Below, piece after piece: positions 1,060-49,413 of a stretch of 64,000 nucleotides of DNA (its first letter is position 1; each line of letters opens with the position of its first letter). A program made the position numbers and the translations under genes. The notes beneath the pieces were generated by a model. It saw only the letters and a program-made list of their open reading frames with translations, was not told the DNA's origin and searched no databases. Source of the stretch: an uncultured bacterium (GTDB lineage Bacteria; Cyanobacteriota; Vampirovibrionia; Gastranaerophilales; Gastranaerophilaceae); NCBI GenBank assembly GCA_902797985.1, contig CADBUZ010000003.1, positions 62,001-126,000 of the forward strand. Reading direction: 5' to 3'.

Positions 1060-2292
1060 ATGGCAAATCTCTTTACAGAACTTGAAAATATAAATAAACA
1101 AGTACCGTTGGCAGAAATAATGCGTCCAAAAACATTGGAAGAATTTTTAGGTCAATCGAATGTTATAGCACCTAATTCTCCTTTGATGAATTTGATAAAA
1201 TCACAAAGACTTTTTTCATTAATTTTATGGGGAACTCCGGGGTGTGGAAAAACAACATTGGCAAGGTTGATTGCAAATCAGGTTAATGCGAATTTTGTTG
1301 AGCTTTCTGCTGTATCTTCAGGAATTAAAGATATTAAAGAAACTGTTGAAAAAGCAAATGAAGCCCTTAGGTATGGTCAAAAAACTATTCTGTTTATTGA
1401 TGAAATTCACCGTTATTCAAAAACTCAACAGGATGTTTTGTTACCATATCTTGAGGATGGCACTTTGTATCTAATAGGTTCGACTACTGAAAATCCTTCT
1501 TTTCAGGTTGCACCTGCGTTGATTTCAAGAGTTCAGATAATTAGGCTTAATTCTATTGATGATGAAAGTATGGAAAAAATTGTTAATAACGGATTTAATT
1601 ATTTGGAAAAAAATCATCAACCAATAGAATATGATGAAGAAGTTACAAAATTCATAATAAATAATGCAAGAGGGGATGCCAGAACTGCTTTAAATATGGT
1701 TGAGAACTCTTATTTTGCAAGTAATTTTTCGAATAATTTCAGAAAGTTGTCTGTAGAAATATTGGAAAGTATTACTCAAAAAAGAAATACAAGATATTCA
1801 AGGCAGGAGCATTATGATTGTGCGTCAGCTTTTCAAAAAAGTTTAAGAGGGAGTGATCCTGATGCTGCAATATACTATCTTGCAAAAATGATAGAAGCAG
1901 GTGAAGATCCCAGATTTATTGCAAGGAGATTAATAGTATGTTCGGCAGAGGATGTCGGTAATGCAGATCCGAATGCATTAAATGTTTCGTTGAATGCATA
2001 CAAAGCTGTTGAAATTTTAGGATTGCCGGAAGGAAGAATACCATTAGCGCAGGCTGTTATTTACGTTGCAAAAGCTCCAAAATCTAATCAAACTATTATG
2101 GCAATTGATAAAGCGTTATCAGATATTCATAGCGGATTAGATTTTCCGCCTCCTATGCATCTTAGAGATGCTCATTATAAAGATGCTGAAAAATATGGAT
2201 TTGGGGTTGGTTATGTGTATAGTCACGATGCTCCGGAGATTGAACAACAGTTTTTGCCGGATGAGATAAAAGACAGAAAATACCTCGATTAA
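1060..2292 (+). CDS. rarA: replication-associated recombination protein A (AAA+ ATPase)
   Basis: RarA/MgsA is a clamp-loader-like AAA+ ATPase that acts at stalled replication forks. The 410-aa product has Walker A GTPGCGKTT (about residues 58-66), Walker B LFIDEIHR, sensor-1 GSTTENPSF and the C-terminal MgsA domain (SAEDVGNADP, then PPPMHLRDAHYK), in the order and length of the family. The ATG at 1060 has no visible Shine-Dalgarno but is preceded at 6 nt by an extended -10. The stop codon directly abuts the stop of the convergent lptF/G gene with no bases between. Identification is confident. Confidence 0.95.
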   Translation: MANLFTELENINKQVPLAEIMRPKTLEEFLGQSNVIAPNSPLMNLIKSQRLFSLILWGTPGCGKTTLARLIANQVNANFVELSAVSSGIKDIKETVEKANEALRYGQKTILFIDEIHRYSKTQQDVLLPYLEDGTLYLIGSTTENPSFQVAPALISRVQIIRLNSIDDESMEKIVNNGFNYLEKNHQPIEYDEEVTKFIINNARGDARTALNMVENSYFASNFSNNFRKLSVEILESITQKRNTRYSRQEHYDCASAFQKSLRGSDPDAAIYYLAKMIEAGEDPRFIARRLIVCSAEDVGNADPNALNVSLNAYKAVEILGLPEGRIPLAQAVIYVAKAPKSNQTIMAIDKALSDIHSGLDFPPPMHLRDAHYKDAEKYGFGVGYVYSHDAPEIEQQFLPDEIKDRKYLD

Positions 2293-3408
2293 TTATGTTA
2301 TAGTAAAGACTTTTCTGTAATATAGATATGTTCCTGCTATCGTTAGAATGATATTAGGCAAAAATGCTGCAAAGAATGGATTTAAACTGCCGGCTTCCCC
2401 GAATGACAAGGATAATGCCCGTATCAAATAATATGCAAAAATAATCAAAATACTAAATAAAAATCCTCGGTTATATCTGACTCTCGGTGGAGTTATTGCC
2501 AATGGAACTCCAATTAAGACTAATACAAGAGTCATTAATGGCAGGGCTAATTTGTCGAATAAATCTATAATTAGATATTGCCTGTCTTCCAGATTTTTAT
2601 TTTTAGCAAGATATATGCACAATTGTAGGAAATTATGTTCGTTTGCAACATTTCGATTTAATTCTTTTTTTAAGTTAACTCCAAATTGAGCAATTGTTTT
2701 TCCAAAATATGTAGCATTAAGTATTTTGCCTTTATCAGCAATTGTATAAATAATACCGTTATTAAAAATCCAACCTTTAGGAGAAGACCCTCCTGATTGT
2801 GCTTGAAGAATATGTATGGCATCCGGTTTAGACATATCAAGCACCGTTACATTATTGAATTGCTTATTTTCACAAGATTCAACATAAAATAATCGTTTAA
2901 GCATCCTATCTTCATTTAATTCTTGGAAAGTAAAATCGTGTTTCCCTTCAGGAATATTTTTTTGACAGAATGCCCATAATGCTAAATCTTTAGATTGTTT
3001 AGTCATTATAGGAACGATTGTTTCATTTATAAAAAAGCTAGCAAGACACATGACGACCGCAAAGGCAAATACCGGCTTTGCTATACGATTGAAACCGATG
3101 CCGCAAGCTCTCATAACTGTAAGTTCGGATGCTAAACTCAATTTGTTTAAGGTCATTACAGTAGAAAGCAAAACGCCCATAGGTATTGTCATTACAAAAA
3201 TTGATGGCAAGCTTAAAATTACTAATATAAATGCAACTTTAAACGGTATACCGTATTTTGCTATCTGTTTAATAAGTGTCATAAACGTATCTGATGCAAA
3301 TATAATAGATGTAAATACCAATACACCCATGATAAACATTTCTATAACTTGTCTAAGGATATATTTATCTAATAGTTTTAAATTTTCTCTTTTAAAATCT
3401 TTAAGCAT
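2293..3408 (-). CDS. LPS export permease, LptF/LptG (YjgP/YjgQ) family
   Basis: This 371-aa inner-membrane permease has the family arrangement: N-terminal transmembrane helices (starting DKYILRQVIEMF), a periplasmic jellyroll-type middle (about residues 140-270) and C-terminal helices with the PLMTLVLVLIGVPLAITPPR segment. LptF/G form the channel of the LptB2FG ABC transporter, which extracts lipopolysaccharide and passes it to LptC and LptA. Both lptA and lptC lie near 29-30 kb. Only one LptF/G gene is in the window, so the partner or a homodimer cannot be judged. TAAAAT ends 6 nt before the ATG and there is no Shine-Dalgarno, so the mRNA may be leaderless. Confidence 0.9.
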   Translation of the reverse strand: MLKDFKRENLKLLDKYILRQVIEMFIMGVLVFTSIIFASDTFMTLIKQIAKYGIPFKVAFILVILSLPSIFVMTIPMGVLLSTVMTLNKLSLASELTVMRACGIGFNRIAKPVFAFAVVMCLASFFINETIVPIMTKQSKDLALWAFCQKNIPEGKHDFTFQELNEDRMLKRLFYVESCENKQFNNVTVLDMSKPDAIHILQAQSGGSSPKGWIFNNGIIYTIADKGKILNATYFGKTIAQFGVNLKKELNRNVANEHNFLQLCIYLAKNKNLEDRQYLIIDLFDKLALPLMTLVLVLIGVPLAITPPRVRYNRGFLFSILIIFAYYLIRALSLSFGEAGSLNPFFAAFLPNIILTIAGTYLYYRKVFTIT

Positions 3409-3414
3409 ACATAT

Positions 3415-3420
3415 ATTTTA
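3415..3420 (-). promoter_or_regulatory. -10 element of lptF/G
   Basis: TAAAAT on the minus strand ends exactly 6 nt before the ATG. No ribosome binding site and no clear -35 box are visible. It belongs to the set of possible leaderless starts in this window. Confidence 0.4.
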
Positions 3421-3570
3421 ACCTAAAAAAGATGTTGATGGAAGAAAAAGTATATTTTATTAACTTAAAATATTTACACTTTCATCTATATTTTTATTGC
3501 CGGTTAGTCTAATGAAAAAAATAATAAGTAACTTAAGATAAAAATGTATATATAATCCTCATCGCTCATT

Positions 3571-3594
3571 CCTCTCGTCTGAGAGGCTTTTTTT
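3571..3594 (+). terminator. rho-independent terminator
   Basis: CCTCTC, a 4-nt loop GTCT, GAGAGG and then C plus seven T form a clear intrinsic terminator on the plus strand. No recognised gene lies just upstream on this strand. A TATAAT at 3551-3556 is too close to give a meaningful transcript. It may end a short unannotated RNA started in 3430-3550, or act as an attenuator for the small ORF at 3681. Confidence 0.65.
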
Positions 3595-3680
3595 GTAAAT
3601 AATTATTAAACTTAGGGCAATTTTTATGGAATAAAATACTTATTATATGTGTAAGTTAGTGTACAGGAGTTATTTATTAC

Positions 3681-3830
3681 ATGTTTAGTAAGGAATTTAT
3701 GCGTTATCTGATTAATTATCAACCTGATGGTTGTGAAGAAAAAAAAGTTGATACTGTAAAAGAGATTGAATTTAAAACCCCGACATCAGGAAAATATGCA
3801 AAAGTGTATTTGCCTATACATAACAGATAA
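3681..3830 (+). CDS. possible 49-aa small protein
   Basis: A 49-codon ORF (begins MFSKEFMRYL, ends YLPIHNR) has an AGGAGT Shine-Dalgarno 10 nt upstream of its ATG. Its stop abuts the stop of the convergent ricT gene. Charged and soluble in composition, with no signal peptide or known domain. A good ribosome site, a composition like its neighbours and the exact fit before ricT favour a real gene, but nothing about function can be said. Confidence 0.5.
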   Translation: MFSKEFMRYLINYQPDGCEEKKVDTVKEIEFKTPTSGKYAKVYLPIHNR

Positions 3831-4763
3831 TTAAACATTTCCTGTAGAAGAATTTCTATCGTCTTCAAGTTGTTTAAGTTGCTTCATATCTACTTTTTCA
3901 TCTTGAGTATAATTATTCATTGGTAAATCAATTTCAACGTTAACATCTGCATCGACCATTTCAACGTCATTTTTTGCGTATTCATGTGTCTTGCCATCTT
4001 CTAATTTTACTGAAACAGCGCCTTTTAAGAAATTGATTAAACAAACTCTGCCTAATCCGTCAGGAGTCATAACAGATGAACCTATTGGAGGCATTCCTTT
4101 TGCTGCGTTTATATAGTTTGAATATTCATAAGTAAGACAGCATAAAAGTCTTCCGCATGTGCCGGATATCTTTGTTGGAGAGATAGGCATGCCTTGATCT
4201 CTTGCTAATTTAACATTTATTGGTTCAAATTTTCTTTTGAATGTGTTACAGCAGAATGGTTGTCCGCATGGGCCGGCACCTTCCATAATAGAGGTTTCAT
4301 CCCTAACTCCTATGTGTCTAAGATCAATCCGTACTCGTTTAAATGTTTGGGTTAAATCTTTTAGCAGTTCTCTGAAATCAACTCTTTCAGGTGCGGTATA
4401 ATAAAAGGTTATTTTTCTTTTATCAAACGTAAGTCTGCATTGAGTTAAGTTCATGTTTAATTTATGTTTTTCTACTAACTCCTTACATTTGAAAAAAGAG
4501 GTTACTTCTTCTTTTTTGATGTTTTCTAATATTTCCAAATCGTGTTGTGACATTACACGGATAAAGTCAAAAGCTTGAGGTTTATTTTCTGCTTTTTCCC
4601 AAATTTTGGATATTTCTTGATTGACAAGAACAACCTTAAGCGCTTCTTCACCTTTTTCAGTGCGAGCCAAAATCATTTGTCCGTGCTCTAATTTTACGTG
4701 TTCAGGCACGTTCAACGGATTAAAACTATTCTTTAAATAATAAACTGCATACTTTATTGTCAT
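3831..4763 (-). CDS. ricT: PSP1-domain protein, RicT (YaaT) family
   Basis: The 310-aa product carries the PSP1 C-terminal domain with the family's cysteine-rich core: GPCGQPFCCNTF, then GTCGRLLCCLTYEY (about residues 175-230), preceded by LRHIGVRDE. In Bacillus RicT joins RicA and RicF in an Fe-S-containing Y-complex that affects RNase Y activity and sporulation; in other phyla its role is less defined. The C-terminus is an acidic linker. It lies 29 bp downstream of gpsA on the same strand, so it may be cotranscribed. A TATAAT also ends 8 nt before the ATG, and no Shine-Dalgarno is seen. Confidence 0.88.
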   Translation of the reverse strand: MTIKYAVYYLKNSFNPLNVPEHVKLEHGQMILARTEKGEEALKVVLVNQEISKIWEKAENKPQAFDFIRVMSQHDLEILENIKKEEVTSFFKCKELVEKHKLNMNLTQCRLTFDKRKITFYYTAPERVDFRELLKDLTQTFKRVRIDLRHIGVRDETSIMEGAGPCGQPFCCNTFKRKFEPINVKLARDQGMPISPTKISGTCGRLLCCLTYEYSNYINAAKGMPPIGSSVMTPDGLGRVCLINFLKGAVSVKLEDGKTHEYAKNDVEMVDADVNVEIDLPMNNYTQDEKVDMKQLKQLEDDRNSSTGNV

Positions 4764-4792
4764 ATAAACTCATTATATTATAATTTTTTAAT

Positions 4793-5791
4793 TTAATAAA
4801 CTTCTTCGCCTTTTAGTTTTCTGTTCATAAGTTTAGATAAAACTTCTTGAGGAGTAATATCTGTGTAAACAGCTTCATATATAGCAGAAGATACAGGAAC
4901 TTCTTCTCCTAATTTTTTTGCTAAATCGCAAACTGCTTTAGATGTTTTAACCCCTTCTGCAACTGAGCCAAGTTCTGATAAAATATCATCAATTTTTTTA
5001 CCTTTGCCCAGCATAGAACCAACTGTATAGTTTCTGGACATAGGGCTTGAGCAAGTTGCAATTAAATCACCCATGCCGGATAAACCGTATAGTGTGGAAG
5101 GTTTTGCACCTAATTTCACGCTCACACGAACGATTTCAGCCATACCTCTTGCAAGAAGTGTACCCATACAATTGTCACCTAAATCCATTGCGTGCGCAAA
5201 ACCTGAAGCAATTGCGATAACATTTTTCAGGCTTCCTCCGAGCTCTACACCTATTACATCTTTGTTTGTATATAATCTGAATTTGTTTGGAACATTCAAA
5301 GCTTGTTGTACATATTTTGCTATTTCTTCGTCTTCACATGCAACAGATGCGGCAGTCGGTTTTCCCATTAAAACTTCTTTTGCCAATGTCGGACCTGAAA
5401 GAATAGCTAATTTTTGGTTTGGTAATACATCTTTAATTACTTCTGACATTCTTTTTAATGTTCCCAATTCAATCCCTTTTGAGGCATTAACAATAATTTG
5501 ATTAGGTTCTATTCCTGCTTGTTTTAACTGTTCGCATACAGGACGAACACCGCCTGTTGCTACAACGGAAAGAATGATTTCAGCATCTTTTATTGCGTAT
5601 GATAAATCATCAGTTATTTCGACATCGCTTCTGAGTTGAACTTCTAATGGTTTAGAGCAATGTTTGTTTTTTAGTAAATCTTCGCTCAAGTCTTGTGTTC
5701 TGCCCCATACGCATACTTTATCAAAATTATCCGTTAATAACCATGCAAGAGTTAATCCCCAACATCCCGGACCTAATACAGTCAGCTTCAT
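4793..5791 (-). CDS. gpsA: glycerol-3-phosphate dehydrogenase [NAD(P)+]
   Basis: GpsA reduces dihydroxyacetone phosphate to sn-glycerol-3-phosphate, the backbone for phospholipid synthesis, in the cytosol. The 332-aa protein has the N-terminal dinucleotide fold (LGPGCWGLTLAW, a variant of GxGSWGTALA), LSGPTLAKEV, the catalytic-lysine region GVELGGSLKNVIAIASG and the C-terminal GMGDLIATC...SRN motif. Length is typical. The ATG is preceded by GAGAGG. The neighbouring 6010 gene diverges, so the roughly 218 bp between them should hold two promoters. Confidence 0.95.
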   Translation of the reverse strand: MKLTVLGPGCWGLTLAWLLTDNFDKVCVWGRTQDLSEDLLKNKHCSKPLEVQLRSDVEITDDLSYAIKDAEIILSVVATGGVRPVCEQLKQAGIEPNQIIVNASKGIELGTLKRMSEVIKDVLPNQKLAILSGPTLAKEVLMGKPTAASVACEDEEIAKYVQQALNVPNKFRLYTNKDVIGVELGGSLKNVIAIASGFAHAMDLGDNCMGTLLARGMAEIVRVSVKLGAKPSTLYGLSGMGDLIATCSSPMSRNYTVGSMLGKGKKIDDILSELGSVAEGVKTSKAVCDLAKKLGEEVPVSSAIYEAVYTDITPQEVLSKLMNRKLKGEEVY

Positions 5792-6009
5792 TTAAAACCT
5801 CTCTCTTAATTTTCCGTATTTAGATTATACAATAAAATGCAAAATTAGTTAAATATTATAACATTTATTTAAATATCACTTAAACTGTTCAAAAATCATC
5901 CATTTAGATTATGACGTAATCTGTGCAATATGAAATAATATTATTGAGATTTAGTAATTAATCATTATTAAACCTCAGGGGAAACAAATTAAGAGTTGCT
6001 AGGTTAAAA

Positions 6010-9000
6010 TTGAATAGAATGGCTGTGGGGAAAATTAATATAATTTTTCGTGCGCTGCTTATTATAGGTTTATTCTACTGTTTTTTAAGCAGCTCTTTTG
6101 CATATGCCAACGCAACCTTACCTGAATTAAATCAATCAACAGATTCTTCACGTTCATATACATTTACTGCAAATGAAAACGTAACTCTTAATGAAAATAT
6201 GGGAACAACTTCCAGCGGTCTGTTCTCTGTTATAGGTGTTTCAAAAGACAGTAACAGTATTATTTTTAATAGCTATTCAGGGTTTGTTGTTTCTGAAATC
6301 CAAACAACTTTAAATCTTTCTGATTTAACAATGAAAAATGCATTATCTGCTATCGGTTCTGTCATTTATAATACAGCACAAGACTCACAAATTACAATTA
6401 ATAATGTTAATTTTAACAGCAACTCAGTACTATCACAAACAAATGCTTACGGTGGTGCGGTATATACTATTGGTAAAATGACCTTTACAAATTCTTCATT
6501 TGAAGGTAATTATGCAGTTACTCAGGGAGATTCTTCTGTTGCTCAGGGTGGTGCTATATATGCACAAGACTCTATTCAATTAATTGCTGATAGTGATAAC
6601 GTGGTTATTGTCGATAACTATGTTATGGATAACAATGGTCAAGAGGACAATGCTATATACATGGCAAACAGTGATTCTACTCTGACACTAAGCGCCCAAA
6701 ATCAGGGTACGATTTATCTGTATGATAATATTGATGGTGCATCAGGGTATAACGTATCTCTAACAGGTGATGGAAGCGGGAAAATAGGTTTGTTCGGGGA
6801 TATTAATAACGCTAATATCTCAATTTCAAATGTAGATATTACTTTTGCAGATGGCGAAACTACCTCTCATACACTAAATAATTTGACAATTGGTAATAAT
6901 GTTAAATTTATTATGGATATTGATTTGGCTGAACAAAAAGCTGATACTATAACTTCTAATAATGCATCAGGAACTGTATATTTATCTGAATTAAATGTAC
7001 TATCAGCTCCTAGCGGTGATAGTACAACTGTTCAAATACTAAAAAATGCCGATAATTTAACTCTTAATATTGACCAACTATCAGAGAATCTGTATACAAG
7101 TGTTCAACCTACTATGTATAGTACATCATTGCTTGCTGACTCTGTTTCCCTTGGACGAACTGATACTGATAATGACAGTATTACAATTAATGGTTGGAAA
7201 GATGTTTTATATGAAATGGTTCATGATACTACCCCTACTCATATGATTAAAAGCTTTATTTTTAATTCTGAAAATGAGTATGTTCTAACCAAAGATTTAG
7301 GTGAAATTCCTCAAGAAATTATGTTAACAGTCATTAATGATTCAAATGCAGAATATGGAACATTAAATGCGAATAATCATTCAATGTTTCAGATAAAAAA
7401 TCCTATTACAAGTATTGAGTTGAACGATATATTAGTTAAAAATGCGAAATCATCAACAGATGGTTCTGTTGTTTATTTGGATAATGCAGCTTCAGATTTT
7501 ACCGCTAACAATTCAGTTATAACTTCTAACTCTTCAGATAGAAATGGTGGTGCTATATATGTTCAAAACGGAACATTGAATCTTCAAAATTCAACTCTTT
7601 CAAATAACTCTGCAGGGGAAAATGGTGGTGCTATATATATTACAGAAGATGCTCAAACAGAAATTATAAATACAGATTTTGTTAATAACACAGCAGGGCA
7701 AAAGGGTGGTGCTATATATACAAATTCAAGGGTTACTATATCAGCTGATAATGGAGAAAGTACCTTTGAAGGTAATACTGCCGGTGGAGAAAATAATGCG
7801 ATTTATGCTAATACTGATGCATCCGTTACTTTAAACGCTACAAATAACGGTGCTATTAATATGAATGATAAAATATCAGGTTCGCAAAATGGATATAGAT
7901 TAAATGTAACAGGTGATTCAACAGGTAATGTTAATATCAATAATACTGTTGAAAATGCAAATATAACTTTAAGCGGTTCTAATTTAAATCTTGGCAAAGA
8001 TAACTTATTAAAAGGCAATAATTTTAATGCTCAAGGCGGAAATTTAAATCTTGTAAATAATGAAATTGGAAATACTGATTTTAGTAGATTAACTACATCA
8101 GGAAGGACAAATGTTGCGGTTGATGTTGATTTAGCAAATCAAGCAATGGACAGGGTGACCGCAGATAATTATTCAAATATAAATGGAAAAATAAATGTAA
8201 ATAAAATGCACTTGCTATCAGATGCAACTTCCAAGACGACAAAAATTTTATTTGCAGATTCGCCGTTAAAACGGAGTGTAACTTCGTCAGTCAAAACAGT
8301 AACATATTCAAGAGTATATAAATATTTAGTTTCTTACAGCCCATCCAGCGGGTATTTTACGTTTAACAGAGGTAATGGTGGCGGGCCAGATGATTTTAAT
8401 CCGGCAATCCTCCCATCAGGTATTGCACAACAAGTTGCATATTTAAATCAGTTAAATAATTATCAAATGGCAATGTACCATTCATATACATATATGACTA
8501 TCCCTAAAATAGATAGAATAAAGGCTAAACGCAATGCATACGCACAAAATGTTTATGATAATGGATATAATCCTACGTATATTGGTGTGCCGGAGGAAGT
8601 AAAAAGCATATGGGTTAGTCCATATTCAACTTTCGAAAGTATTCCTTTAAAAAAGGGACCAAAAGTTTCATCTATCAGTTATGGAACATTATTTGGCGGA
8701 GATAGTGATTATATTGATATTGGACATGGATTCGGACTTGTTTATGGAGGATATGTAGGGTACAACGGAAATAATTTCCACTATAAAGGTATTGACTCCA
8801 ACCAACAAGGTGCAGTAATAGGTGCTACGGCAAATATATATAAAGGTAATTTTTATAATACAATTACGGCAAACGTAGGCTGGATGATTAATAATACTGA
8901 TACCCCTTACGGTTCTGACACAATGAATATTATAATGACAGGTTTTGCTGATAAAATCGGTTATAACTTTGAATTGATAGGTGGAAAATTAATTATTCAA

Positions 9001-44191: not shown

Positions 44192-44219
44192 ATCAATGAA
44201 AAATACAGGAGATACCCCC

Positions 44220-45383
44220 TTGTACACGAATGGAGTTAACACTTATAACAAGGTACACGATGAGAAACCTCAAATGACCAGCCAAAATTTTAATTTTGAC
44301 GGTGAAGCTTTTTCTGACCTTATGGAAAAAGAAGAAGCTGCCGGCGGTGGTCTTCGTGAAACAGCTCAAGAATTGGCTGAAGATGAGTCTATTTTGTCTA
44401 CCGATGAAGAAAACAGAGCCATGATAAAAAGAGGCCAAGCTCAGAGTGAGGAAGCTCCTAAACCTCATTTTCCTGAGGATAAAGCAAGGTTATTAAAGTT
44501 AATGGACATGAATAATAAAATAAATATGTCCTCAATCAATATAACAAAAAGTAAAAAAGAATTAGAAAATACTGTTGGTTCAGGTAATGATGAACAAGAT
44601 GAGCCTGAAGATATTACATCAGTTGTCGCTAAAATGATTGCTCAAAAAGAAAATGAGGGTGAGTCTAAAAACGCAGATGTAGAAACATCGGTTTCTATGG
44701 ATAAATCCAAAGAAGATTTAGAAGATAAGAGAAAAAATAATTCTCAAGTTTTGCATGAAACAGAAGAAGAATTGCTTGAAGATTTGTCTATTTTATCTAC
44801 AGAAGAAGAAAACTTGGAAATGGCAAGAAGAAATGCTGCCATGAACAGGCTTAGCGATGATGATTACAAAACAAATGAAGAAGATATGATGTTCTTGAAT
44901 GATATTGTTGCTTTAAATAATCAAATTCATGTAGAACAGTCTGATATAGTTAACAATACCCAAAATGTTTTGAGTGCTTTAATGAGTCAAACTAAAGCTA
45001 TGGATAATTCAAATAGAATTGACCTTTCTGATTTATCCTCTGAAGATGTTGATTATATTATCGGATTGTTAAAGATGGGTACGGCAGATTCTTCAAATTT
45101 AATGAATAATAATGATGAAATGCATATCCTATCTGAAAAATTCTTTGCCCTTTTAAAGGATTCAATAATAAATAAAAAAGTTTTCAGAATAGATTTTGAC
45201 AATCAAATTTCTGTCATTATAAGAATAGATAAAGAGGGAAAAATAAGCGCAGAGTTCTTAACAAATGATGATGCGTTAGAAACCTTTTTGAAAAATAATC
45301 TTCATGTTTTAAAAGAGAGATTTGAAGAATTAAATGTGAGTTACGGAGATATAACTTACAAAAAAACAGACGAAGCGAATTAG
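44220..45383 (+). CDS. flagellar hook-length control (FliK)-like protein
   Basis: The frame is open from ATG 44196, but AGGAGA (44207-44212) lies 7 nt before TTG 44220 and the promoter would start transcription after 44196, so TTG is preferred (387 aa). The N-terminal part is acidic and contains an internal duplication: ELAEDESILSTDEEN and ELLEDLSILSTEEEN, each followed by a similar helical stretch. The last roughly 70 residues (FRIDFDNQISVIIRIDKEGK, then LHVLKERFEELNVSYGDITY) follow the pattern of the FliK C-terminal domain, which triggers the export switch from hook to filament. A flagellar rod/hook gene follows after 21 bp. Confidence 0.65.
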   Translation: MYTNGVNTYNKVHDEKPQMTSQNFNFDGEAFSDLMEKEEAAGGGLRETAQELAEDESILSTDEENRAMIKRGQAQSEEAPKPHFPEDKARLLKLMDMNNKINMSSINITKSKKELENTVGSGNDEQDEPEDITSVVAKMIAQKENEGESKNADVETSVSMDKSKEDLEDKRKNNSQVLHETEEELLEDLSILSTEEENLEMARRNAAMNRLSDDDYKTNEEDMMFLNDIVALNNQIHVEQSDIVNNTQNVLSALMSQTKAMDNSNRIDLSDLSSEDVDYIIGLLKMGTADSSNLMNNNDEMHILSEKFFALLKDSIINKKVFRIDFDNQISVIIRIDKEGKISAEFLTNDDALETFLKNNLHVLKERFEELNVSYGDITYKKTDEAN

Positions 45384-45404
45384 TAAAATAAAGGAGAGAA
45401 TCAG

Positions 45405-46241
45405 ATGTATGATTCGTATACAACCGCGATAAATGCGAGAGTTGCAACTACACACTGGATGAATGTTTTAACGGACAACATGACAAATATGTACACACCG
45501 GGGTTCCGTGAAAACAAGGTTAATTTTGATACTTTTTTAGGCGGAGCAGTTGTTGATAACCCTATTAAAAATCAAGGACAAGGTAAATCAACTCCGGGTA
45601 CTTCTAATGAAAATGTGTTTTATGAAGGAAACGGATTTTTCATAACAAGAAATGATCAGGGTAAAATTATATATACTCGTCACGGTGAGTTTACTTTCGA
45701 TGCAGAAGGCGTTTATAGAGCTAAAAATGGTGATGCCGTTCAAGGTTATATTTTGAATGATAATGGCGAAATCATGGCGGGTACTAAACGAATAAGCCAA
45801 GATTTATATGAAGAAACTGCTATGAAAGGTGGCGCTCTAAGTATTCCAACTACTAATATTAAACTTTGGATTGATCCTAATAATGGTAAATTCATGGGAA
45901 AATATGACGAATATGAAATTAAAGAAGACGGTACTATATATGGTAAAGCTGATAGCGGGAAGCGTTCTGTTCCATTATATAAAATAGCTACGGCTAATTT
46001 CCATAATAATAGCGGATTGTTTGAAATTAGTGATGGTAAATTCGTTGAAACAGAAGAATCCGGTAAGCCTGTCATAGGTAAAGGACAAATTAGAGCAGGG
46101 TTACTTGAACAATCAAATACTGACTTCAAAACAAATATGAGTAATTATCAACAGGCTAAAATGCAAATGGAATTAGTTAATGCCTTGATAAAATCAAATA
46201 AAGAATTGCTGGAAGAAGCAATGAGACTTGTTTCTTCATAA
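45405..46241 (+). CDS. flagellar hook-basal body protein (FlgE/FlgF/FlgG family)
   Basis: 278 aa. The N-terminus (ARVATTHWMNVLTDNMTNMYTPGFRENKVNF) carries the rod/hook signature N-x-x-N-x-x-TPGF(K/R), followed by the D1-like GNGFF and TRHGEFTFDAEG...NGDAVQGYIL pattern of FlgF/FlgG. The C-terminus (LLEQSNTDFKTNMSNYQQAKMQMELVNALIKSNKE) is the coiled-coil end. The length suits a distal rod protein rather than a hook. AAGGAGA precedes the ATG. Terminator 110 bp after the stop. Confidence 0.85.
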   Translation: MYDSYTTAINARVATTHWMNVLTDNMTNMYTPGFRENKVNFDTFLGGAVVDNPIKNQGQGKSTPGTSNENVFYEGNGFFITRNDQGKIIYTRHGEFTFDAEGVYRAKNGDAVQGYILNDNGEIMAGTKRISQDLYEETAMKGGALSIPTTNIKLWIDPNNGKFMGKYDEYEIKEDGTIYGKADSGKRSVPLYKIATANFHNNSGLFEISDGKFVETEESGKPVIGKGQIRAGLLEQSNTDFKTNMSNYQQAKMQMELVNALIKSNKELLEEAMRLVSS

Positions 46242-46350: not shown

Positions 46351-46379
46351 GGGAACAGAAATGTTCCCTTTATTTTTTA
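46351..46379 (+). terminator. terminator of the fliK-flgG-like operon
   Basis: GGGAAC, loop AGAAAT, GTTCCC, then TTTATTTTTT. Confidence 0.8.
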
Positions 46380-46481: not shown

Positions 46482-46585
46482 TTATTATCTATAATTTATT
46501 TAAAAAGTGCAGTAATTAGAAAAATAAACGGTCTTTGCTGTAAAACTCTCGTTACAAAAGATTGACCGAAAACTTTTATTTAATA

Positions 46586-46684
46586 AAATTAAAAAAGAGG
46601 AAATGGAGTGAATATCTCCAGCTGTGTCGCAGCCGTAAAAGCCGGAATGCTCTAATTTAACAATGTTTCGACACAAAACATTGT
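46586..46684 (+). promoter_or_regulatory. cobalamin riboswitch-like leader (class II, env8-like)
   Basis: Elements in order: P2 AAATT/AATTT (46586-46590/46654-46658); A-rich joiner; P3 AGAG/CTCT (46596-46599/46650-46653); GGAAA joiner; P4 GGAG-TGAATAT-CTCC (46605-46619); P5 GCTG-TGTCG-CAGC (46621-46633); CGTAA; CCGGAATGC before P3 closes. Then a 9-bp hairpin ACAATGTTT/AAACATTGT (46660-46684) with loop CGACACA. Loop L5 TGTCG is fully complementary to CGACA of that loop, the L5-L13 kissing pair that defines cobalamin riboswitches. E. coli btuB has AGCTG...CAGC...GTAA in the same place. The Shine-Dalgarno (46697) follows 12 nt later, so ligand binding probably blocks translation. Confidence 0.8.
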
Positions 46685-46710
46685 CCAAAATATCACAGGA
46701 AGGTAAAAGA

Positions 46711-47412
46711 ATGAGTGTTGGTGTATCATCATCAATGAATTCCGTTCGTACGGGAACATGTCCGCACGGACTATCACCGGGGGCTTGCCCTATATGCTCC
46801 AATATGGGCGGCGGCTCTAAAGTTCAAACTGCCGATTTTTCCGCAAAACCCGGAGAAATGAGCTGGAATGAATGCGCGGCAATTGGTGCATTTCTAAAAT
46901 CCTTACAACAAGCAAAACAAGCTCGTGAATCCGATTTTCAAAAACATCTACAAAACATAGCTCAATTTGAAGCCAATATGACAAAAGCATCAGAAAGACT
47001 TAACCAATTTATTCAAACAATGAGTCAAAATATACTTACAAAACCTGTTGCTTTTATTGCTCAAAAACTTGTACTTCCTGTTGTTAACGCATTAAAGAAC
47101 ATGCCTGCTAATGTGCTTAATACACTTGCGCAAATAACCGGAAAACTGGCCGATATCTCTGATAAACTGGCGGCTGTCTTTGGTGAATTAAAAGCTGCCA
47201 TTAATAAAAAAGTTTCTGATTTAGCTAAAAAAATCACAAAAAAATTAAAATCTATATTTGAAATATTCTCAACAGATAACGAAGAAGACGACAATGAAGT
47301 AATGGTTGCTTTTGAAAAACAACTCAATAAATTAAAAGGATTACTTGAAAAAATATCGGACAAACTCAAAGATGAAAATATCCGAAAGGAAATAGAAAAT
47401 GTTAATAAATAA
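46711..47412 (+). CDS. unknown protein with CPHG...CPIC motif, riboswitch-controlled
   Basis: The frame opens at 46663, but AGGAAGG (46697-46703) 7 nt before ATG 46711 fixes the start (233 aa). Near the N-terminus is CPHGLSPGACPICSNMGGG, a CxH..CxxC arrangement able to bind a metal ion. The rest is a long amphipathic helical region (about residues 50-230) with an Ala/Leu-rich stretch (LPVVNALKNMPANVLNTL) and a Lys-rich coiled coil. No signal peptide, no known family. It overlaps the next gene by 14 bp. The leader upstream looks like a cobalamin riboswitch. Confidence 0.7.
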   Translation: MSVGVSSSMNSVRTGTCPHGLSPGACPICSNMGGGSKVQTADFSAKPGEMSWNECAAIGAFLKSLQQAKQARESDFQKHLQNIAQFEANMTKASERLNQFIQTMSQNILTKPVAFIAQKLVLPVVNALKNMPANVLNTLAQITGKLADISDKLAAVFGELKAAINKKVSDLAKKITKKLKSIFEIFSTDNEEDDNEVMVAFEKQLNKLKGLLEKISDKLKDENIRKEIENVNK

Positions 47413-48970
47413 TGATTTAGAAAGTCAAAGGATAAAAAGGAATTTGACTCAAACACAAAAAAAAGTCGCAGATTCCGTAAAGGAAGGTGTTTTAATAAAT
47501 TCAAATTTACCATTAAATGAATCGTATAATTCTCTAATGATAGCAGATACTGTAGAGTTACCTGAAAAATTATATGAAAAAAACACAAAAAAAGAAAAAG
47601 GTTTACTGCCAATAGCCGCTGCAACCGTTGGGTTTATGGGAGTTTTAACAGGTATAACCGCTCTTATTGCAAAGTCTGCTAAAGATGCTATTGATGTTGA
47701 TTTAGCAAAAAAACTACCTTCTTTAACAAGAAATGTTTGTATAAACAAAGAAATGGACCAAGCTATATATAGATTAGTAGCGAATCCTAATAAAAAAACA
47801 GTTATGGCAGCATCGGGACTTGCTGTATTAAGCTCTATGGCCTTTATGGGAAAAACGTTCTGTGAAGGATTTAGAGATGTTTGGATTAAGAAAAAAGAAG
47901 CTGACATCCATAAAGATTTACAAGAAAATTTGATTAGTGTAGAAACACAATCTTTCTCCGGCAAAATGCAGATTATACGAAATATGCTATCCGAAAAAGC
48001 AAAAGAATTTAACGGGGCATTAATGCCTGAAACCCCAGAAGCTTCTAAAAACAATTTTAGCAGCCATCAGATAAGCTTCAAAAATAAAGGGGTAAATAAA
48101 GGGGTAAACGAAGGGGTAAATGTAGAGGTAAATAATGTAAAAAAATATCCTCCGACAGATTCTCCTAAAAAAGGTCACGAATTTTTGAAAAATTTAGGAT
48201 ATTTGGCTCTTGGGGCAATTTCTACTCTTGCCATAACAGGTTTAGGGTATAAATCTATGAAAAATTTGAGAGCAGGAAACAATGAAATGAAACGAGGTCT
48301 TAATAGAGTTAAAGAAGTTATAACCGAGATTGCAGAAAATACTCAAAAGAGATCAGTGGAAGAAATGGGAGAAGAAAGCTTTAATAATGCAAACAACTTA
48401 GATAGAGAAAAAATCAAAAATTTATTTGTTGATATATCTGCAGATGAAGATTTTGTAAAATCAATTGCGGAAAAAATGAAATGGAATTCTCAAGAAGAAA
48501 AGGAAAAATTTGTAGAAGAAAATCTGTTTAATATTAACAAATCAACCGAAAAAGCAGATAGAGCGCTTGGCGGCTCAGGTCAAGACAGAAATACTTTTTA
48601 TTCTCACGTGTCAGATTATAAAGCATTTTTCTATAATTGGCTAATTGATTCTGATAATAAGCAGTTCAAAAATTTATTTTTAGGAATAACAGGGGCAACA
48701 GCATTCGGGTACATTGGACAATTAGCAGTAGATGCAATTAAGGATGTTCAAGTAAAAAAATATAATGCACAAACAGAATTGAATTTACAAAAAAGATTAG
48801 TTGCGACAGAATTAAGAAATTTCAAATCTAAAAAAGATTCTTCAATTCAACCGTTGTGTGATGAATTTTATCGTCAGAAAAAAGACGGAAAACCTAAAGA
48901 AGAATTAAAAATTGTTGCGGACAATATTTTAAATGAAATTAAAAATGGTGCGCCGTACGTATATTCATAA
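47399..48970 (+). CDS. membrane protein of unknown family, second gene of the riboswitch operon
   Basis: 523 aa. Four hydrophobic segments in pairs: LLPIAAATVGFMGVLTGITALIA and MAASGLAVLSSMAFMG in the first third, LGYLALGAISTLAITGLGY in the middle, FLGITGATAFGYIGQLAV near the end, separated by charged helical parts. The two halves look like a duplicated unit, each with a membrane pair then V(Q/W)xKK(K/Y)xAxxxxxLQ. The centre has a KGVN-type tandem repeat. No enzyme motif. Start overlaps the previous gene, so translation is coupled. Confidence 0.7.
   Translation: MLINNDLESQRIKRNLTQTQKKVADSVKEGVLINSNLPLNESYNSLMIADTVELPEKLYEKNTKKEKGLLPIAAATVGFMGVLTGITALIAKSAKDAIDVDLAKKLPSLTRNVCINKEMDQAIYRLVANPNKKTVMAASGLAVLSSMAFMGKTFCEGFRDVWIKKKEADIHKDLQENLISVETQSFSGKMQIIRNMLSEKAKEFNGALMPETPEASKNNFSSHQISFKNKGVNKGVNEGVNVEVNNVKKYPPTDSPKKGHEFLKNLGYLALGAISTLAITGLGYKSMKNLRAGNNEMKRGLNRVKEVITEIAENTQKRSVEEMGEESFNNANNLDREKIKNLFVDISADEDFVKSIAEKMKWNSQEEKEKFVEENLFNINKSTEKADRALGGSGQDRNTFYSHVSDYKAFFYNWLIDSDNKQFKNLFLGITGATAFGYIGQLAVDAIKDVQVKKYNAQTELNLQKRLVATELRNFKSKKDSSIQPLCDEFYRQKKDGKPKEELKIVADNILNEIKNGAPYVYS
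48086..48133 (+). repeat. four tandem 12-bp repeats
   Basis: AAAGGGGTAAAT repeated four times with small changes, encoding KGVN-KGVN-EGVN-VEVN inside the 47399 gene. Likely to vary by slippage in multiples of four codons. Confidence 0.85.
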
Positions 48971-48987: not shown

Positions 48988-49413
48988 ATGGATAATTTAA
49001 GCGTAAATGTTCAAATGCCGAATAACAGTACTAACCATTGTCGTTTTGATGGGGTAAAAGTACTGTATTATTTGAGCAAGAAAGAGGAAGCACTTCCTAT
49101 TCTATACGATACACTTAAAAAATCCAACGATGAAGCAGAAATATGCGAAGCATTATACATCTCAGATAGAATGATAGAAAATGGCGTTCAAGGTGTAGAT
49201 AAAATGTATCCGGCATTTTCAAGGTTCAATGATACCCGCTCTCCAAATATTCAAACTTTTCTTGCGGGAGTATACAGAAAAACAAAAGTTCCTGATGCAT
49301 TCGGGCCATTAGTTTCTATGCTAATAAAAAACACCATCAACCCAATAGACCCCAAACCGCCTTTTGATCCGAATGAAGAAATAGGTGGAGCTATATTAGA
49401 TTATTTAGCATAA
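48988..49413 (+). CDS. 141-aa protein of unknown family, third gene of the riboswitch operon
   Basis: AAAGAAAGG precedes ATG 48988, 17 bp after the previous gene. A soluble, helical, HEAT-like composition (VKVLYYLSKKEEALPILYDTL, EICEALYISDRMIE, LAGVYRKTKVPDAFGPLVSML) with a Pro-rich segment near the end (INPIDPKPPFDPNEE). No catalytic motif or signal peptide. A terminator follows at once, so it closes the operon. Confidence 0.7.
   Translation: MDNLSVNVQMPNNSTNHCRFDGVKVLYYLSKKEEALPILYDTLKKSNDEAEICEALYISDRMIENGVQGVDKMYPAFSRFNDTRSPNIQTFLAGVYRKTKVPDAFGPLVSMLIKNTINPIDPKPPFDPNEEIGGAILDYLA

Follow-up and report, generated by a model that had tools for sequence, protein, structure and literature searches.

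The A-B-C locus

The window examined here, a 64,000 nt stretch from the genome of an uncultured member of the Gastranaerophilales, contains three consecutive genes on the + strand, designated A (46711–47412; 233 aa), B (47399–48970; 523 aa) and C (48988–49413; 141 aa). The product of A includes an invariant CPHG-x5-CPIC motif and one more Cys followed by predicted helices, that of B has approximately three hydrophobic segments and long helices, and that of C is strongly conserved and includes no hydrophobic segment. It is plausible that the motif in A and the further invariant Cys make up a metal site. None of the three has a Pfam or NCBIfam match above the cut-off, the weak Pfam matches of A and B lying below it, and no curated Pfam/NCBIfam match places any of them with the TonB receptors, BtuCDF or ECF members. 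The remark in the initial annotation that the controlled genes are not known B12 genes thus stands as far as these two collections are concerned. PDB sequence searches with A, B and C returned nothing credible, a fold search with B found no match to a solved fold, and the AlphaFold models have a mean pLDDT of 62 for A, which makes it a poor model, and a pLDDT of 66 for B. A phage origin of A was considered and rejected, as a weak tape-measure match (E 1.5e-4) appears to reflect helical, low-information similarity and the phage records gave no match.

Immediately upstream, and likewise on the + strand, are a FliK-like and a FlgE/F/G-like gene (44196–46241). A flagellar link was rejected, as FlgF-/FliK-like neighbours were not matched beside A-B-C in the 80 related loci described below and a terminator-like hairpin (46351–46368) separates the flagellar genes from the A-B-C leader.

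A class-II cobalamin riboswitch precedes gene A

When the window was searched with cmscan, its one Rfam match was RF01689 (AdoCbl-II) at 46586–46658 on the + strand, with a score of 47.4 bits (E 2.4e-8; gathering cut-off 36.5 bits), and the covariance model was covered over its full length. At the same site RF00174, the class-I model, reached only 15.1 bits, below its gathering cut-off of 31.5, and a class-I reading was rejected on this score. The initial annotation had called a class-II cobalamin riboswitch from the letters of this leader, and the two covariance models bear this out. No second cobalamin riboswitch was found in the rest of the genome from which the window comes.

The elements named in that annotation are all in place on the + strand, namely P3 (AGAG 46596–46599/CTCT 46650–46653), P4 (GGAG 46605–46608/CTCC 46616–46619, extendable to TGGAG/CTCCA, 46604–46608/46616–46620), P5 (GCTG 46621–46624/CAGC 46630–46633) with its loop L5 (TGTCG, 46625–46629), the CGTAA sequence (46634–46638) and CCGGAATGC (46642–46650). 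P6 (46633–46635/46643–46645), also part of the RF01689 aptamer, is small, in keeping with the env8-type lack of a bulky P6 that had been pointed out. The thermodynamic fold of the leader alone gave no significant signal (z = -0.66), and the evidence for the RNA is therefore comparative. In 35 aligned leaders the core of the P3–P6 junction is conserved and compensatory changes occur at four pairs of P4, while P6 is almost invariant with one compensated pair. In P5, three leaders have CTC/GAG in place of CTG/CAG. Judged on this comparison of sequences, the assignment of the window RNA to the known class-II cobalamin riboswitches, as a genuine member, is well supported.

Covariation of the L5–L13 kissing pair

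The aptamer is followed by the P13 hairpin (46660–46684, + strand), evident in the sequence and in the predicted fold, with a 9 bp stem formed by ACAATGTTT (46660–46668) and AAACATTGT (46676–46684). Within its loop, CGACACA (46669–46675), the CGACA at 46669–46673 is exactly complementary to L5. Both this perfect complementarity and the position of the hairpin, which ends 12 nt before the Shine-Dalgarno sequence, had been reported previously and were confirmed in the sequence and by coordinates, respectively. Shuffling of the 63 nt downstream stretch with its dinucleotide composition retained gave a CGACA-containing loop on a stem of 8 bp or longer in 0.03 % of cases.

To survey the kissing pair, L5 was extracted from 79 related leaders and the downstream hairpin loops were searched for a partner. 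Matches with five or more pairs were present in 86 % of the leaders, and full-length matches in 61 % versus 6.6 % with shuffled downstream sequence; as bulges of up to 2 nt were tolerated, an individual match carries little weight and the matrix of swaps is the better guide. L5 sequences of TGCCG are partnered by loops of the CGnGCA or CGnnGCA type, CTGCCG by CG(T or A)GCAG (12/12), CTGGCG by CGCnCAG-type loops (4/4) and TAGCCG mostly by CGTGCT. With the TGTCG/CGACA pair of the window added to the swaps TGCCG/CGnGCA, CTGCCG/CGTGCAG and CTGGCG/CGCnCAG, the covariation that had been suggested from the window sequence is borne out across these related leaders, and we conclude that, at the level of sequence, L5 and L13 covary. 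The kissing helix of the window consists of five contiguous pairs, whereas nearly all of its relatives have a bulge of 1–2 nt. Among the closest relatives of the window, P13 is 9 bp in most leaders with differing sequences and a CGnnnCA loop, and this upkeep of the hairpin while its sequence changes points to continued selection.

Conservation across the Gastranaerophilales

Homologous leaders are present throughout the order: of its 383 genomes searched, 353 contain RF01689 and 346 contain gene A. Both were present in 335 genomes, the riboswitch only in 18, A only in 11 and neither in 19 (odds ratio 32, not corrected for relatedness). At least one genome counted among the 11 (G061) does carry the aptamer, seen in locus L077 with an insertion in P6. 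The two features were also close together: of the 76 genomes with both that were listed by coordinates, 75 have the riboswitch 51–175 nt upstream of A. All seven sampled members of one genus (g22) lack both the riboswitch and A.

A scan of the sequence collection with gene A identified 304 relatives, and the best 80 of these 304 loci, titled Candidatus Gastranaerophilales, Candidatus Scatousia, cyanobacterium or uncultured bacterium, were examined. The aptamer was upstream of A in 80/80 (in L067 and L102 by eye), A and B were adjacent in 80/80, and C followed B in 74/80. Insertions in the P6 region were seen in the aptamers of L067 and L077 (approximately 50 nt in each), L093, L108 and L120, which probably fall below the covariance-model threshold. 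A literature search returned no paper joining Gastranaerophil*, cobalamin and riboswitch.

Promoter and expression platform

A sigma-70-type promoter is predicted on the + strand at 46562–46589 (-35 TTGACC, 46562–46567; 16 nt spacer; -10 TAAAAT, 46584–46589). The consensus scan of the window is by itself not above chance; in 78 related leaders with a sigma-70-like promoter the median distance from the end of the -10-like box to the aptamer GGAAA is 10 nt. Transcription probably begins at the P3 5′ strand. The sequences corresponding to the P1 of Rfam, AAATTA (5′) and TAATTT (3′), are able to pair, a pairing that the alignment fold does not predict, and because AAATTA overlaps the predicted -10 box, P1 probably lies outside the transcript.

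The Shine-Dalgarno sequence of gene A, AGGAAGG, is at 46697–46703 (+ strand). A TCCTCT...AGAGGA hairpin followed by T5/6 was recognised by pattern in 53 of 79 leaders and by eye in a few more. As its 3′ arm ends approximately 7 nt before the start codon and is itself the Shine-Dalgarno sequence, this one element can, to judge from its sequence and position, act both as a terminator and as a sequestor of the ribosome-binding site. The AGAGGA hexamer is found again within the 5′ strand of P3; pairing of TCCTCT with that strand instead could be a candidate switch. Neither the window nor the 15 leaders closest to it have the hairpin, and in its absence P13 and the kiss are left at a distance of 12 nt from the Shine-Dalgarno sequence, which in the predicted folds of the window is only partly paired and not clearly sequestered.

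Other genes under the same RNA and the B12 economy of the order

Within the order, RF01689 leaders also precede genes for NrdD, the anaerobic ribonucleotide reductase (L018, L022, L030, L031, L032, L126, L127, L137, L140, L146 and L150), and for TonB-B12-like (BtuB-like) receptors (L124, L125, L130 and L152). In three genomes (G007, G013 and G033) the receptor gene adjoins a BtuC-type FecCD gene. Both kinds of co-regulated target, NrdD on the one hand and the BtuB-like receptor together with BtuC on the other, fit a response to B12 scarcity. A further leader (L133, in G198) precedes a different short hypothetical frame of 94 aa that is not A, NrdD or BtuB.

Two B12-dependent enzymes are encoded in the genome of the window: the ribonucleotide reductase NrdJ, and a MetH in which the S-methyl_trans, Pterin_bind and both B12-binding domains are present. 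In a sample of 45 genomes, chosen to take in 14 that lack gene A, NrdJ was over the cut-off in 26 of the 31 A-bearing genomes versus 1 of the 14 A-lacking genomes (Fisher p 1.4e-6), a statistic that overstates independence since the A-lacking genomes were selected and seven are from one genus. Five genomes thus have A and no NrdJ over the cut-off, and one (G102) has NrdJ without A; in genus g17, A and NrdJ are both present in G111 and both absent from G087. MetH and QueG were rejected as explanations of the distribution of A, as the Met_synt_B12 activation domain and QueG were each found in 0/45 genomes, and a B12-binding match of the size of MetH was found only in the genome of the window. 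In L123, from the genome of the window, the B12-dependent MetH is on the - strand, lacks the usual activation domain and adjoins a homocysteine methyltransferase–MTHFR fusion (3818–6490 and 1993–3825).

Neither CbiC nor CbiQ/EcfT was found in any of the 45 genomes. A TonB plug was present in five and TonB receptors were absent from the other 40; these five also gave strong FecCD matches, and one more (G015) gave a marginal one. The use of B12 without the corrin-synthesis marker, and mostly without the canonical import markers tested, suggests that A-B-C most likely serves the acquisition, handling or replacement of cobalamin. A-B-C coexists with BtuB and BtuC in five genomes and hence is not a simple substitute for them.

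Regulation of A-B-C and its possible roles

The best explanation, to which we assign a probability of roughly 0.8, is that the leader switches A-B-C off when cobalamin is sufficient and that the operon most likely has a role in acquiring, handling or replacing cobalamin; of these two parts, regulation is much firmer than the function of A-B-C. Cobalamin would bind at the P3–P6 junction and stabilize the L5–L13 kiss, which would hold P13 against the aptamer and so keep the ribosome off the Shine-Dalgarno sequence 12 nt downstream. In most relatives the kiss is followed by the TCCTCT...AGAGGA-U6 hairpin, and repression there would be by sequestration and/or termination. A-B-C would then be made under cobalamin scarcity. 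Riboswitches of this class have been established to repress via a kissing loop (PMC10907184, PMC10653944), and repression by cobalamin is the sign to be expected by analogy with the class and with the other targets, NrdD and the BtuB-like receptor.

Chance resemblance within AT-rich intergenic DNA, with which a fold energy that is ordinary for the composition would agree, is contradicted by the covariance-model score, the order-wide conservation at one locus and the compensatory changes, and we regard it as extremely improbable. More serious, and still improbable, is the idea that the leader has decayed or become uncoupled from its ligand in the lineage of the window, such that the aptamer folds and A is poorly controlled. 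The bulgeless kiss, the absence of the sequestering hairpin from the window and its 15 closest leaders and the only partly paired Shine-Dalgarno sequence are in its favour. In env8 it is the bulge in the kiss that gives ligand dependence (PMC10907184), and by analogy the window switch, its kiss being bulgeless, could be partly locked. However, the aptamer core scores well above the RF01689 cut-off, the P13 of the window clade is mostly still 9 bp despite its varied sequences and retains the CGnnnCA loop, and the P. megaterium metE switch functions with five contiguous L5–L13 pairs (PMC10653944).

What A-B-C does under B12 scarcity is less clear, and we propose it as a candidate operon for coping with B12 shortage. 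One reading, quite possible and short of even odds, is that A-B-C replaces or buffers a B12-dependent function at low cobalamin, or has a general role timed by B12, with no part in uptake. Riboswitches of the same class in the order control NrdD, a B12-independent enzyme that can stand in for NrdJ in the same way; moreover, five genomes have A-B-C as well as BtuB and BtuC, and none of A, B and C resembles an outer-membrane receptor, a binding protein or an ABC permease. Against this, none of the three is like an enzyme of known fold, and the entry of B12 into NrdJ-bearing genomes without the tested import markers would be left unexplained. The reading that we prefer, held tentatively and as a rather doubtful proposition, is that A-B-C is possibly an unrecognised cobalamin-acquisition or trafficking system of B12-auxotrophic Gastranaerophilales that have NrdJ and mostly lack the known import routes that were tested (TonB-dependent receptor, BtuC, ECF). 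The tested markers do not explain the B12 supply of these mostly uncultured gut relatives of cyanobacteria, and a conserved B12 riboswitch on a conserved uncharacterised operon identifies three specific genes to test.

Comparison with known cobalamin riboswitches

The RNA is of a known class, and what is new is the regulon, with its uncharacterised A-B-C operon. The window shares with RF01689, formerly AdoCbl-variant, a match over the full length of the model, the P3–P6 junction and a small P6, and differs in that P1 is probably outside the transcript. RF01689 was first described from marine sequences (PMC2864571), whereas here it occurs across a whole order of gut bacteria and heads an uncharacterised operon. 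In the env8 hydroxocobalamin riboswitch (4FRG and 4FRN, cited in PMC10907184), as in the window, the junction is followed by a short P13 whose loop kisses L5 and which lies close to the ribosome-binding site. However, in env8 this site is inside P13 rather than 12 nt after it, and the env8 kiss is bulged, like those of nearly all relatives of the window and unlike the five contiguous pairs of the window itself. Class-I riboswitches (RF00174; E. coli btuB and P. megaterium metE) share with the window the kissing-loop logic and five contiguous L5–L13 pairs (PMC10653944), and have the bulky P6 and peripheral helices that the window lacks. The L5–L13 family described above provides a set of natural kissing-loop variants in which the strength of the loop–loop interaction can be studied in relation to ligand dependence.
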